Assembly (NCBI GenBank): GCA_003696125.1
Contig: RFHZ01000075.1
Location: 1 to 8,596 of the forward strand
Source of the DNA: Nitrospinota bacterium
Lineage (GTDB): Bacteria > Tectomicrobia > Entotheonellia > J063
DNA: 8,596 nt
Direction: 5' to 3'
Shown: positions 2,630 to 8,596 of the stretch, one piece after another
How the letters are laid out: each line of letters opens with the position of its first letter
Position numbering within the stretch: position 1 is the stretch's first letter
Translations under genes and position numbers: made by a program
Notes under the pieces: model-generated
What the model saw: the letters and a program-made list of their open reading frames with translations, nothing else
Told to the model about the DNA's origin: nothing
Databases searched by the model: none

Positions 2630-2646
2630 CTGGCACAACTTTTGCT
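2630..2646 (+). promoter_or_regulatory. Sigma-54 (-24/-12) promoter upstream of the SPW gene
   Basis: The sequence reads C-TGGCAC-AACTT-TTGCT. It matches the RpoN consensus TGGCAC-N5-TTGCW at every defined core position, with exactly ten bases between the invariant GG (2632-2633) and GC (2644-2645). The predicted transcription start is about 2657, giving a leader of about 106 nt to the SPW start codon. It lies just after the STAS gene stop in a non-coding gap, as a real promoter should. I did not recognise an activator site upstream; a cognate enhancer would lie inside the STAS gene. Confidence 0.8.
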
Positions 2647-3198: not shown

Positions 3199-5052
3199 AT
3201 GGAAAAGAAACAGCGATTCTCCCTTTGGTACTTCATGGCCACCTTTTTGATCCTCTTGATCATAGAGAGTTTTCTCTCTTCCCCACATAGCGAGACCATC
3301 TCCTATAGCGATTTCAAGCGGCTCGTGAAGGCAGGGAAGGTCGTGGATCTCACTATCGGAGAACGAACGATTACCGGACGACTGAAGCCAGAGGGGTTGG
3401 AAGGACTCCTTCCCCAAGAGAAAATCGAGGAGATTCGGAAGGCTGGGAAAGGGGAGCATCGTTTTTTCACCCTCCGTGTAGACGATCCCTCTCTGGCCCA
3501 GGAACTGGAAGCGGCCAACGTGCGCTTCAGCGGACGGGTGGAGAATACCTGGTTCTCTACCCTCCTCTCCTGGATCCTGCCGGCTTTGATCTTCTTCGCC
3601 CTGTGGGCGTTTTTCATCAAACGGATGGGGGCAGCCAGCGGGGTCATGGAACTCGGCAAGAACAAGGCCAAAGTCTATATGGAGAAACAGACCGGCGTAA
3701 CCTTTGACGATGTGGCAGGGATCGATGAGGCCAAAGAGGAGCTCATGGAGGTGGTGACATTTCTGCGGAGTCCGGAACGATATCGCCGTCTGGGAGGAAA
3801 GATCCCCAAAGGGGTGCTGCTCGTCGGTCCTCCCGGAACCGGAAAGACCCTTCTGGCCAAAGCAGTGGCCGGAGAGGCAGAGGTGCCATTCTTTAGTATG
3901 AGCGGGTCAGACTTCGTGGAGATGTTTGTGGGAGTCGGGGCCGCCCGGGTACGCGACCTCTTCGCCCAGGCGCAGAAAAAAGCGCCCTGTATTATCTTTA
4001 TCGATGAACTTGACGCCCTGGGGAAAGCACGAGGCCTCAACCCGATGGGTGGTCACGACGAGCGAGAGCAGACCCTCAATCAGCTCCTGGTGGAGATGGA
4101 TGGCTTTGACACCAACACAGGGGTCATCATCATGGCGGCGACCAACCGGCCAGAAATCCTGGACCCGGCTTTGCTGCGTCCCGGACGTTTTGACCGGCAC
4201 GTGGCCATCGATCGTCCTGATCTGCAGGGACGAGAGAAGATCCTGCGGGTTCATGCCCGGCAGATTCGCCTCGCCCCAGCAGTCGATCTCTCCGCCATTG
4301 CCGCCCGCACACCGGGCTTTGTAGGGGCTGACCTGGCCAACCTGGTGAACGAAGCGGCACTGCTGGCCGCCCGGAAGGGGAAGGAGGCGGTGGAGATGAC
4401 CGACTTTGATGAGGCGATCGATCGGCTCGTGGCCGGACTGGAGAAGAAGACACGGGTGATGAATCTCAAGGAGAAGGAAATCGTGGCTTACCATGAAGCC
4501 GGTCATGCTCTGGTGGCCGAATCCCGACCTCATGCGGATCGAGTCACCAAGGTCTCCATTATCCCGCGGGGTGTGGCAGCACTGGGCTATACTCAACAAC
4601 AGCCGACCGAGGATCGCTACCTCTTAACCAAGGCGGAACTTCTTGACCGATTAGACGTGTTACTCGGTGGACGGGTGGCCGAAGAACTCGTCTTTGAGGA
4701 TATCTCAACCGGGGCACAGAACGATCTCCAGCGAGCCACCGATCTGGCCCGCCACATGGTCATGCAGTATGGAATGAGTGAACATCTGGGATTGGTCACG
4801 TTTGAAGAACCGCGTACGGCGGCCTTTCTCAATATGCCTATGTCTCCCAGACCGCGAGAGTATAGCGAGCAGACCGCCCAGACCATCGATGCGGAGATCC
4901 GAAAGCTTCTTACCGACGCACATGCCCGGGTCAAAGAGACGCTTACCTCTAAGCGTCAGGCCCTGGAAGCACTGGCCAAGTTGCTGCTTGAACGCGAAGT
5001 GGTTGACCGGGCCATGCTGAAGCAGGTGTTAGCCATTCCCACCGCTACCTAG
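3199..5052 (+). CDS. ftsH: ATP-dependent zinc metalloprotease FtsH
   Basis: A 617-residue membrane-anchored AAA+ protease that degrades misfolded membrane proteins and selected cytosolic proteins as a hexamer. An N-terminal membrane helix (about residues 9-26) is followed by a periplasmic domain (about 30-118) and a second helix (about 121-140). The AAA domain has Walker A GPPGTGKT (210-217), pore motif F243-V-G, Walker B C-I-I-F-I-D-E (264-270), and a second region of homology [20 protein letters not shown] (314-333) with arginine fingers R327 and R330. The protease domain has the zinc site HEAGH (432-436) and third ligand D509 (G-A-Q-N-D). All catalytic elements are intact and the length is normal. 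ATG 3199 has AAGGAG at 3184-3189, nine bases upstream. It stands as a single gene between the SPW gene and a second sigma-54-type promoter. Expression may include read-through from the SPW promoter. Many genomes with this gene type carry more than one ftsH, so it need not be the essential copy. Confidence 0.97.
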
Positions 5053-5087
5053 AGCAGAACGGGTTAAGATCGTTATATCCCTCTGCT
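5053..5087 (+). terminator. Weak candidate terminator after ftsH
   Basis: AGCAGA (5053-5058), immediately after the ftsH stop, pairs with TCTGCT (5082-5087), and GGG 5061-5063 can pair with CCC 5079-5081. The stem is short and interrupted, and no T tract follows, so this is a low-confidence call. Confidence 0.3.
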
Positions 5088-5122
5088 TCTCGTGTTCATA
5101 CGCGTTTTGCCCGGAAAATTGA

Positions 5123-5172
5123 GGGACAAAATGGACGGGACAGTTTGGTAAAAGGTGTCCCTATTTGGGACA
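5123..5172 (+). promoter_or_regulatory. GGGACA half-site cluster, candidate activator sites of a sigma-54 promoter
   Basis: The hexamer GGGACA occurs at 5123-5128, 5137-5142 and 5167-5172, and its complement TGTCCC at 5156-5161. The last two form a palindrome, TGTCCC-TATTT-GGGACA (5156-5172). The palindrome centre is about 99 bp before the predicted start site of the downstream sigma-54-type promoter, and the other half-sites are about 126-140 bp before it. Dimeric enhancer-binding activators usually bind in this distance range. The activator is not encoded in the window and its identity is unknown. Confidence 0.6.
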
Positions 5173-5236
5173 GCATGGAAGGGCACAAGTCTCTTCTATG
5201 CTGGTGAAGAGGGGAAGAATAGCGGACCAAAAGTTC

Positions 5237-5252
5237 TGGCATGAAGATTGCC
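5237..5252 (+). promoter_or_regulatory. Sigma-54-type (-24/-12) promoter upstream of the secreted protein gene
   Basis: TGGCAT-GAAGA-TTGCC has the invariant GG (5238-5239) and GC (5250-5251) exactly ten bases apart. It departs from the core consensus at the last base of each element (T for C and C for A/T). The predicted start is about 5263, giving a 49-nt leader to ATG 5312. The upstream half-site cluster at the right distance makes this weaker match more believable. Confidence 0.65.
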
Positions 5253-5311
5253 TGAACAGATGCGAAGAAACTATTCGCAAACACAGATTTGGGAGAGAGG
5301 AGTAACGAGCC

Positions 5312-5764
5312 ATGATCGCTAGAGGAAAAGCAGGACGCACCCTTGTGCTCACCAGTAGCCTGGTAGTATGGATGCTTTCCCTGGCCTTCTCTGCCCAGGG
5401 ACTCAGTGAGGAGGCTCTCACCCGCCAGCAGCGTGGCGGAGGGGTCATGATAAGCCTTACCTACCTCAATCCCTTGCAGAAAGCGCCGGAAGGAAAGATG
5501 GCTTTTGCCCTTAGCATGAATACTCATTCTGTAGACCTGGATCAGTACGTCATCGAACGACTCGCCTCGCTCCGTAATGACCGGGGCCAAGAGGTGCAGG
5601 CGCTCTCCCTGTCTTCTCCAACCGGAGGTGGTCATCATCGTTTTGGCGTCCTTCTCTTTCCCCAGACCGATGCCGCGGGAAATCCCTTGGTGACGAAGGA
5701 CACCAAATATCTGCAGGTCATTATCCGGGAGGTGGCCCAAAAAGAGCGCTGGGTCTTCCAATGA
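5312..5764 (+). CDS. Conserved secreted protein with THSVDLDQY and GGGHHR motifs
   Basis: A 150-residue exported protein. Residues 10-29 form a signal peptide with cleavage likely near A28-Q29. The mature part (about 120 residues) looks all-beta. Its marked motifs are GGGV (42-45), T71-H-S-V-D-L-D-Q-Y79, L-R-N-D-R-G-Q-E-V (87-95), G105-G-G-H-H-R110 and a C-terminal strand with V-I-I-R-E-V. I recall similar unnamed secreted proteins sharing the THSVDLDxY and GGHHR signatures, but know no function. The histidines and acidic residues could bind a metal; that is speculation. ATG 5312 has AGGAG at 5298-5302, nine bases upstream. It follows a sigma-54-type promoter with candidate activator sites and precedes the beta-propeller gene by 55 bases, so the two secreted proteins are probably made together. 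Confidence 0.75.
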   Translation: MIARGKAGRTLVLTSSLVVWMLSLAFSAQGLSEEALTRQQRGGGVMISLTYLNPLQKAPEGKMAFALSMNTHSVDLDQYVIERLASLRNDRGQEVQALSLSSPTGGGHHRFGVLLFPQTDAAGNPLVTKDTKYLQVIIREVAQKERWVFQ

Positions 5765-5819
5765 GATCTTCCCCTGCAGAAGTAAAGTTGCCTTACACGG
5801 AGAGGAGAGCATATTCATT

Positions 5820-6872
5820 ATGGATTTATATGCACGTTACCATGTTTGCCAGAAACGGAGAGGGTGGAGGTTTGTGCTCTGCTCTTTGCTGGGGTGGGTT
5901 TTGTTCATGCTTGGGGGAAGTGGTTCCATCGCCATAACGTGGGCAGGGACACCAGAAGGGCCAGAGGCCTTGCTCTACGTTCCTCTGGGACCAGGCAAGA
6001 AGATCGCGGTGATCAACCTGGCCTCGCAGCAGATCATGAACATCTTTGCTGTGGGGATTGAAGCGCACGGCCTGGCGGTGACTCAGGACGGAAAAGAACT
6101 CTATGTACCTGCCTTACGGGGAGCTACCGATATCGCCATCTTCCGCACAGACACCAGGGAGCGAATCGGAACAGTAGAAGTAGGGGGGACCTCACACCAT
6201 CTGACCCTTTCCCCAGATGGCCGGTTCCTCTATGCTACCGTCATGCCCTCCTCAGTGGTAGTCATCGATACGAAAACGCGCCAGGTTGTCTCCACACTTA
6301 CCGTGGGACCAGGACCAGGCATGGTGGTGGTGACCCCGGATGGCAGGTACGCCTACGTTACGATTGGGGAACTGGATCAGGTTGCCGTGCTGGATCTGGC
6401 TGCGCAGAAGGTGGTGACCACCATTCCGGTCGGTGCCCTCCCGGACCATGCGGCCATCACGCCGGACGGTAAACGCATCTACGTGACCAATAATTTTTCC
6501 GGGAACGTCTCGGTCATCGATACAACGCAGAATACGGTCGTTGCCACCATCCCTACCGGGAAGGGTCCTCATGGCGTCGCTGTCAGTCCAGACGGAACCC
6601 GGGTCTATGTGAGCAACCGGGGAGAGACAACCTATGCGGTGATCGATACCGCCACGCAGCAGGTGCTTCGACGGGTCGAGGTGGGACGCGAGCCGGGACA
6701 CCTCTCCCTTATAGAGCAATCCGGAACGCTACTCCTCTATTTAAACCTCCTCAGCACCCATCAGGTCCTGGTTATCGAGGCGCAAACAGATAAGGTGCTA
6801 ACACGACTCGAGGTGGGTGTCGATCCTCATGCCCATGCCCTCTTTCTTCCCCCATCCTCTCCCTTCCGTTAA
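5820..6872 (+). CDS. Secreted YVTN-family beta-propeller repeat protein
   Basis: A 350-residue protein with a basic N-terminus (K-R-R-G-W-R, residues 12-17), a hydrophobic export segment (about 18-41) and then about seven repeats of about 42 residues. Each repeat has the YVTN pattern: V-x-V-I-D-T, a turn, V-V-x-T-I-P-V-G, a P-H-G/A-x-A stretch and S/T-P-D-G-x-x-x-Y-V. The clearest copies lie at about residues 120-285 (for example T-P-D-G-K-R-I-Y-V-T-N-N). These form a beta-propeller, normally a periplasmic or surface protein used for binding rather than catalysis; the ligand cannot be predicted. The start has GAGAGGAG upstream, with a rather long gap of about 12 bases to ATG. The first blade (Y-V-P-L-G-P-G-K-K-I-A-V-I-N-L) begins soon after the signal. 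It is probably co-transcribed with the preceding secreted protein. Confidence 0.88.
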   Translation: MDLYARYHVCQKRRGWRFVLCSLLGWVLFMLGGSGSIAITWAGTPEGPEALLYVPLGPGKKIAVINLASQQIMNIFAVGIEAHGLAVTQDGKELYVPALRGATDIAIFRTDTRERIGTVEVGGTSHHLTLSPDGRFLYATVMPSSVVVIDTKTRQVVSTLTVGPGPGMVVVTPDGRYAYVTIGELDQVAVLDLAAQKVVTTIPVGALPDHAAITPDGKRIYVTNNFSGNVSVIDTTQNTVVATIPTGKGPHGVAVSPDGTRVYVSNRGETTYAVIDTATQQVLRRVEVGREPGHLSLIEQSGTLLLYLNLLSTHQVLVIEAQTDKVLTRLEVGVDPHAHALFLPPSSPFR

Positions 6873-7696: not shown

Positions 7697-7981
7697 CTCT
7701 CAACTCCTTGCTTGCCAGAAGATAACCACCTACTGTTTAGAGCCGAGCTGCCGCTGGTAAAGAAGGATCAGTGTTCCGCCCTCTTACGGACGGTGAACCG
7801 CTTCTGGCCGGGCGCAGGCACCGCCGAGGCAGTAGCACTCCCCTTCCCACTGCTGTTCCCTGGCTCTTGCTTCTTGATCCATGGTCGGTCAAGCCGATGG
7901 CTATGGCCGGCGTCCGTGGCTGAGAGCGTTGCCCAAACCACCTCTTGATGGAGTAATTACCGATTGACAGGAACCCAAGAC
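7697..7981. other. 285-base gap between the cyclase gene and DUF433
   Basis: Apart from the DUF433 ribosome-binding site (7704-7709), I see no supported gene, strong terminator or promoter. Translations in all directions give low-complexity or arginine- and serine-rich peptides without family resemblance. A decayed gene or mobile-element relic is possible but cannot be shown. Confidence 0.4.
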
Positions 7982-8596
7982 TCATCCAGAGGCAGTGGGT
8001 TTCTCCGCGTTGCCGAGAGCGGGCGATAAGGGAATGTCGGCAAAGCGATCCACTTTGTACAGGGTGACCGGCTGCTGAACTCCTTTGAGCTGAACACGCA
8101 GAGTAGCCTTGATTTTTACCTTGGCCTGTATGTACCGATAAACGGTTTCGGAGATCACCACCTCTCCCCCTTCGGCCAGGGTCTGGATGCGCTGGGTGAT
8201 GTTGACCGCTGACCCCACAATGCCGTACTTGGCCCGTGTTTCCGAGCCGATATTCCCCACCACCACCTCGCCCGCATTGACCCCGATCCCCATCTCCAGC
8301 TGGGGCACCTGCTCCGCCTGGATCTCTGTCCGGAACCGTTCCATTGCCCTTTGCATCTCTATGGCACACCGCACAGCTCGCTCCACCGCTGGTGCCACTG
8401 CCCCGTTCCAGGGATCGAAGAAGACCAGGATGCCATCACCAAAAAAATCGACGATGATCCCTCGATGCTGCTGGATCACCTCGATCATGGCGGCAAAGTA
8501 CCGGTTCAGGAGGCTGATGGTGGCTTCAGGACTCAGCGATTCGGCCAGCGGGGTAAATCGTCGCAGATCAGAGATCAGGATGGCTACCTCACGTCT
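7982..8596 (-). CDS. Class III adenylate/guanylate cyclase, C-terminal catalytic domain (5' end outside window)
   Basis: The last 204 codons are visible, reading from the right edge to TGA 7982-7984. The catalytic domain begins R-R-E-V-A-I-L-I-S-D-L-R-R-F-T, whose D10 is the first metal aspartate. F-F-G-D-G-I-L-V-F-F supplies the second (D54). V-N-I-T-Q-R supplies the transition-state Asn (N132) and Arg (R136), so the core chemistry looks intact. The residue before F-F-G-D that is usually the base-selecting Lys is Asp (D50), and the second selectivity position (G-S-A-V-N) is Ser (S129). Such replacements occur in a subgroup of bacterial cyclases, so cAMP versus cGMP cannot be decided. After the domain there is a short tail of about 50 residues. 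Any sensor domain (CHASE2, GAF, HAMP and so on) lies upstream outside the window. No partner gene is visible. Confidence 0.92.
   Translation of the reverse strand, partial: RREVAILISDLRRFTPLAESLSPEATISLLNRYFAAMIEVIQQHRGIIVDFFGDGILVFFDPWNGAVAPAVERAVRCAIEMQRAMERFRTEIQAEQVPQLEMGIGVNAGEVVVGNIGSETRAKYGIVGSAVNITQRIQTLAEGGEVVISETVYRYIQAKVKIKATLRVQLKGVQQPVTLYKVDRFADIPLSPALGNAEKPTASG

Follow-up and report, generated by a model that had tools for sequence, protein, structure and literature searches.

A sigma-54-type promoter with a palindromic putative operator ahead of two putatively exported proteins in a Nitrospinota bacterium

Layout of the locus and its promoter

The window, which is the whole stretch of 8,596 nucleotides that was analysed (contig C128), belongs to a genome (G000) of 4.18 Mb in 990 contigs, which is 94.8% complete with 8% estimated contamination. 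In the genome collection used, the phylum is represented by only five genomes, four of which are same-class relatives (G001-G004). The features of the locus are the following, motifs A and B being the two operator classes described below.

3199-5052, + strand: ftsH, the upstream neighbour (TIGR01241 above cut-off)
5123-5128, + strand: first GGGACA half-site; 5123-5137, GGGACAAAATGGACG, fits motif A weakly (6.4 bits)
5137-5142, + strand: second GGGACA half-site; 5137-5151, GGGACAGTTTGGTAA, fits motif A weakly (5.4 bits)
5156-5172: putative activator operator TGTCCCTATTTGGGACA, a 17-bp palindrome of the motif B class, TGTSSCA-N3-TGSSACA
5237-5251, + strand: sigma-54 -24/-12 element TGGCATGAAGATTGC, GG-N10-GC with TGGCAY and TTGC
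5312-5764, + strand: THSVDLD protein, 150 aa, with a putative signal peptide and a beta-sandwich in the model
5820-6872, + strand: YVTN-type beta-propeller, 350 aa, putatively exported (Pfam YNCE and NCBIfam beta_rpt_yvtn above cut-off)

An adenylate/guanylate cyclase catalytic domain is also found in the window, at 7982-8488 on the - strand.

Counted from the -12 GC at 5250-5251, the -24/-12 element would place the start of transcription at about 5262. The ATG at 5312 is a good translation start, with a ribosome-binding-like GGAG just before it. RpoN is encoded in the genome (RpoN DNA-binding domain on C633, E 1.4e-64), and the pattern TGGCAYN5TTGC occurs at 48 sites genome-wide, compared with 5 for the reversed pattern. 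Given this excess and the presence of the RpoN gene, TGGCATGAAGATTGC belongs to a class of sites that is really used by the genome. Among the relatives, the pattern also exceeds its reversed control in G003 (68 vs 6) and G004 (88 vs 17), while the excess is low in G001 (26 vs 13) and absent in G002 (17 vs 19).

The half-sites and the -24/-12 match could be coincidental, the genes being transcribed from a different promoter or by read-through out of ftsH. Allowing two mismatches, TGGCAN6TTGC is no commoner in the window than expected by chance; moreover, ftsH and the THSVDLD gene lie on one strand both here and at a homologous locus (L294), and no clear terminator is found between them in the window. 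Nevertheless, the exact pattern is about ten times more frequent than its control genome-wide, no sigma-70-like site is present on the + strand of the region, and the upstream operator class is common to other sigma-54 promoters, which makes this explanation highly improbable. From its sequence, the stretch 5123-5252 looks like the real control region of an RpoN-dependent promoter with an activator palindrome.

With regard to other sigma-54 sites, a second exact element, TGGCACAACTTTTGC, is present at 2631-2645 (+) of the window, ahead of a short ORF at 2764, judged by eye to be a possible SPW-repeat membrane protein, and of ftsH at 3199. Given this upstream element, ftsH may also be RpoN-dependent. 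Elsewhere, sigma-54 sites lie directly before Hsp20-type and GroES-reading ORFs (L104, L110, L099, L093), which suggests that heat-shock genes are under RpoN in this organism. The 39 bases of the window between operator and promoter (5199-5237) are 87% identical to positions 1501-1538 of L111 in G002 (E 2e-5), where the match lies directly before an opposite-strand gene reading like a transporter binding protein.

Half-sites and two operator classes upstream of sigma-54 elements

The sequence-only reading had described three GGGACA hexamers and one TGTCCC, the latter forming a palindrome with a 5-base spacer, and these were found at 5123, 5137, 5167 and 5156 (-). TGTCCC at 5156-5161 and GGGACA at 5167-5172 form a perfect palindrome, TGTCCC-TATTT-GGGACA, that is unique in the window. 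The half-sites are located at about -140 to -90 relative to the putative start, in line with the distance given in that reading, and the palindrome ends 64 bp upstream of the -24 element, which fits the distance of about 80-150 bp from the start for NtrC-type dyads. GGGACA is not rare across the whole window (9 vs 6.3 expected); what stands out is the clustering of four copies in 50 bp.

The 259-bp gap holding the palindrome is single-copy in the genome and is therefore not a dispersed repeat. As TGTCCC...GGGACA resembles the ends of REP or IS elements, such an origin was considered and ruled out: besides the gap being single-copy, only matches of chance length (15-21 bases) occur elsewhere, the genome has one Y1 transposase gene, TAGGGACA is not over-represented, and no plasmid match was obtained. 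With regard to RNA elements, Rfam gave no match in the gap; its matches in the rest of the window were weak and of eukaryotic type.

The half-sites are enriched at the other sigma-54 sites of the genome. Outside the window, the regions 40-170 bp upstream of the other 47 sites hold 17 copies of GGGACA/TGTCCC where 5.9 would be expected (rank 6 among all hexamers), in contrast to 9 copies downstream of them (6.0 expected, rank 253). Over -30 to -220 and with the window included, 24 copies are observed vs 7.5 in shuffles. The proposal of a sigma-54-type promoter with upstream activator sites is thus borne out by the RpoN gene, by the tenfold excess of the promoter pattern, and by an enrichment confined to the upstream side. 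As de novo motif searches drifted to base composition, they were replaced by shuffle counts, an unbiased dyad search and a matrix of fixed size. Two dyads are enriched over shuffles in G000, GGACA-N3-TGTCC (20 vs 4.7) and, with up to two mismatches, TGTCC-N7-GGACA (20 vs 4.8); the top words of the unbiased dyad search are related to the latter, not identical with it. GGACA-N3-TGTCC is enriched upstream of sigma-54 sites in G003 (21 vs 4.6) and G004 (7 vs 2.2) as well. GGGACA as such is weakly enriched in G003 and shows no enrichment in G004. The most enriched hexamer upstream of the G003 sigma-54 sites is TGAGAC/GTCTCA (22 vs 3.3; e.g. L157-L213), which may represent a further activator motif.

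The first operator class, motif A, corresponds to GGACA-N3-TGTCC (full form GGGACA-N3-TGTCCC) and often occurs in tandem, with 20-21 bp between sites (C831, C692, C556, C509 and C749 in G000; L176 in G003; L224 in G004). Its hard-EM score is 331.8 vs 231.8 (sd 11.1), and the exact GGACAN3TGTCC is found 11 times in G000 vs 3 for the control. A sigma-54-like site lies at most 260 bp downstream of the exact motif on C49, C556, C692 and C831. On C692, the gene that follows looks like a universal stress protein gene, and its promoter had been missed by the strict pattern. The motif A loci noted are L122, L255, L101, L100, L021 and L342 in G000, L176 and L206 in G003, and L224 in G004. Based on these sequences, motif A is a candidate operator of a class-wide stress regulon, with universal-stress-protein and P-ATPase-like targets in three genomes of the class, and is thus more widely spread than the operator class of the window palindrome. 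At L342 (C749, 4499-7790, -), a kinase and an NtrC-type activator (4499-5944) are encoded behind a sigma-54 site at 7849 (-), and a motif A pair at about 8029-8062 lies ahead of them. This NtrC-type protein is a candidate activator for motif A, apparently autoregulated.

The promoter of the window could itself be served by the motif A activator, as part of a general stress regulon including universal stress proteins, with degraded operators at 5123, 5137 and 5147. The enrichment of motif A in three genomes and its hard-EM score are compatible with this, and all three GGGACA copies on the + strand are followed three bases on by TG, as motif A would be. In contrast, against a motif A matrix built without the window, the best scores of the window are 6.4, 5.4 and 3.9 bits, compared with 13-23 bits for good sites, and 102 places in the scanned sequence score at least 8. 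The window was therefore not assigned to motif A, and control by its activator is rather unlikely.

The second class, motif B (TGTSSCA-N3-TGSSACA, 17 bp), is defined from few sites. In G000, its hard-EM sum is 321.6 vs 236.1 in shuffles (sd 15.3); by the same method it is not enriched in G003, and it has so far been found in G000 only. A matrix was built from four sites, at positions 6311, 9419 and 17007 of C814 and 3041 of C163, with the window excluded. In a scan of 444 kb of whole contigs of this genome and partly overlapping loci, the window palindrome is the best untrained hit, with 19.6 bits, followed by a hit of 18.0 bits at the end of C814. In order-3 Markov sequence of 50 Mb, 3 hits attain 19.6 bits, i.e. 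0.25 per 4.18-Mb genome, and the chance of such a hit within 200 bp of any of the 48 sigma-54 sites is arithmetically about 6e-4; both figures understate chance, since it was the window that led to the search for TGTCC-N7-GGACA, and a single contig supplies three of the four training sites. In its CA-N3-TG core, the window site deviates from motif B, with T replacing A on the left-hand edge. Exact motif B is absent from 104 kb of contigs chosen without regard to sigma-54 sites.

As the palindrome is the best untrained motif B hit and the window scores poorly against motif A, 5156-5172 is taken as the operator, and the GGGACA copies at 5123 and 5137, poor matches to both classes, as accessory half-sites or bystanders. 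Of the cluster of activator sites described by the sequence-only reading, the palindrome thus stands as a member of an operator class present at other promoters, whereas the two separate copies do not fit well into either class. The exact TGTCCC-N5-GGGACA, which that reading proposed to look for near other promoters, is found at only one other place in the genome, on C662, where no sigma-54 site was found downstream; it is the related motif B that recurs, on C814 and C163.

The putative regulon and the THSVDLD family

The genes sharing motif B point to metals and the cell envelope. On C814, one site (6311) separates copA (898 aa; TIGR01511, 609.9 bits against the cut-off of 397) from a divergent reductase gene, and a sigma-54 site is present at 6254 (-). 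A second site on this contig precedes the operon of an HtrA-type protease that passes the TIGR02037 cut-off, and the genes that follow look like those of Rieske, rhodanese and heavy-metal-associated proteins. The third is flanked by two more sigma-54-like sites, which are divergent. On C163, the motif B site precedes genes that, from their sequences, read as those for a Met-rich exported protein and a DUF302-like protein. As this operator class is common to the copA, HtrA and Met-rich/DUF302 operons, the regulon is probably shared, and the idea of a dedicated activator, as initially put forward, is not supported. The likeliest signal, considering these targets, is copper or another metal or protein stress of the envelope. 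No activator gene was found adjoining a motif B site or within the window, nor was a sensor kinase/activator pair found on C814 or C163 in this assembly of 990 contigs, which was partly read.

An activator specific to this operon, at an otherwise real promoter, would make the resemblance to the copA and htrA operators a matter of general NtrC-type site geometry. A regulator that probably has its own, apparently private operator is indeed found on C762 (L343), where three GGTCA-N3-TGACC dyads come after an NtrC-type gene (427-1890), with a sigma-54 site at 2003; in Desulfovibrio, the reach of most such activators is one to four operons, and different activators use TGT...ACA dyads (PMC4641369). 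Yet whole half-sites (TGTCCC, TGGGACA) are common to the window site and those of copA, htrA and C163, whose matrix has the window site as its best untrained hit, and the window contains no sigma-54 activator gene. An operon-specific activator is thus improbable.

We favour, with a probability of about 0.6, an RpoN promoter driven by the NtrC-type activator of a shared copper/envelope regulon, with the two exported proteins as targets. Under metal or envelope stress, a kinase would become active and phosphorylate the NtrC-type activator (Fis-HTH, AAA+), while sigma-54 RNA polymerase would wait at TGGCATGAAGATTGC. The activator would bind TGTCCCTATTTGGGACA, perhaps aided by the extra GGGACA half-sites, and by DNA looping bring about open-complex formation. 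A transcript from about 5262 would carry both genes as one operon, and the THSVDLD protein and the propeller, once exported, could help to handle metal or damaged proteins.

The protein encoded at 5312 belongs to no Pfam or NCBIfam family. Its 64 relatives are found mostly in Chloroflexi, and also in Tectomicrobia, Deltaproteobacteria and others; none of the four same-class genomes, G001-G004, has the gene, and the homologues elsewhere are about 30-49% identical. Among 26 aligned relatives, F65, T71-H-S-V-D-L-D77 and G107-H-H109 are invariant. A P-ATPase with a CPC motif is encoded on the same strand in 19 of the 64 homologue loci, and all four of those tested pass the copper model TIGR01511. 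At L294, the order copA - ftsH - membrane protein - THSVDLD on one strand also ties the ftsH of the window to the copper theme. A relative of the propeller is present in 5 of the 64 loci, in one of which (L270/L006) it adjoins the THSVDLD gene, and at L007 the THSVDLD part appears to be fused behind a Spy/ZraP-like region. As none of 40 homologues checked has a comparable sigma-54 site closely upstream, the promoter itself is not seen conserved. Within this genome, C188 encodes a paralogue of the propeller that is 38% identical and contains an insert rich in Met and His; it lies behind a sigma-54 site of its own, with no clear motif B site.

The AlphaFold2 model of the 5312 protein is a beta-sandwich (pLDDT 85, pTM 0.73), for which Foldseek gave no match at E < 0.001. 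Its structural matches include CrdA (PDB 9ll2 and 9ll4; Z 8.7 and 8.6 over about 96 residues) and copper-bound P19/FetP (Z about 7); as the nearest structures also include unrelated beta-sandwiches, the likeness of the model to copper proteins is weak evidence. We tentatively suggest that the THSVDLD protein is the founding member of an exported family for copper handling that has not been described before. In this family, the invariant THSVDLD and GHH residues could be metal ligands, and the protein would sometimes be paired with a YVTN propeller or joined to a Spy/ZraP-like region; here it would be switched on by a sigma-54 copper/envelope regulon with the undescribed operator TGTSSCA-N3-TGSSACA.

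Relation to known systems

In enterobacteria, the QseF/GlrR operator TGTC-N10-GACA lies upstream of a sigma-54 promoter, with glmY as target. The window resembles it in having TGTC/GACA half-sites ahead of such a promoter and differs from it by its spacing, TGTC-N9-GACA, and by its metal/envelope targets. The term QseF/GlrR appears in PMC8745638. Three groups of Desulfovibrio sigma-54 activator motifs have TGT and ACA half-sites 9, 11 or 12 bp apart (PMC4641369), and the window palindrome can likewise be written as TGT-N11-ACA. Desulfovibrio belongs to a different phylum, and the likeness is one of half-site spacing.

Motif A has a close parallel in NmpR of Myxococcus xanthus, an NtrC-type regulator linked to oxygen limitation, with paired palindromic operators upstream of sigma-54 sites and targets that include a P-type ATPase as well as a universal stress protein (PMC11841059). 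The operator given there, GCGCA-N5-TGCGC, is neither GGACA-N3-TGTCC nor TGTCCC-N5-GGGACA. Motif A would be a second, class-wide operator ahead of stress genes.

With regard to the THSVDLD protein, CrdA, the copper resistance determinant of Helicobacter pylori, is among the best structural matches to its model; at 10% identity, with a Z-score near the common beta-sandwich range and a Foldseek E-value of 0.016, this match alone is not evidence of shared function. A partial literature search, in which the family was not searched by name, gave no description of the motif B operator or of the THSVDLD family.

A known system of similar function is CorSR, with the curA operon, of Myxococcus xanthus, in which copA and envelope proteins are under a sigma-54-dependent response regulator of the NtrC type (PMC3707914). 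Its targets lie behind several sigma-54 promoters and include a lipoprotein with PQQ_2 (propeller-type) domains. Here, too, copA lies behind a sigma-54 promoter with the operator class of the window, so that copper control by a sigma-54 activator and a propeller-type envelope target would be common to both. Unlike in CorSR, the targets here are scattered, and in the part of the assembly that was read the copper operons had no sensor kinase/activator pair next to them. Sigma-54 control of copper genes is hence of a known kind, while the operator and the protein family appear to be undescribed. Together with the NmpR and Desulfovibrio TGT-N11-ACA precedents, this means that the finding adds to a known kind of system: for a phylum that is uncultured and sparsely sampled, it yields an operator and a set of targets by which sigma-54 control of copper/envelope stress can be tested, and it links a gene family with no Pfam or NCBIfam model to copper transport via 64 neighbourhoods.
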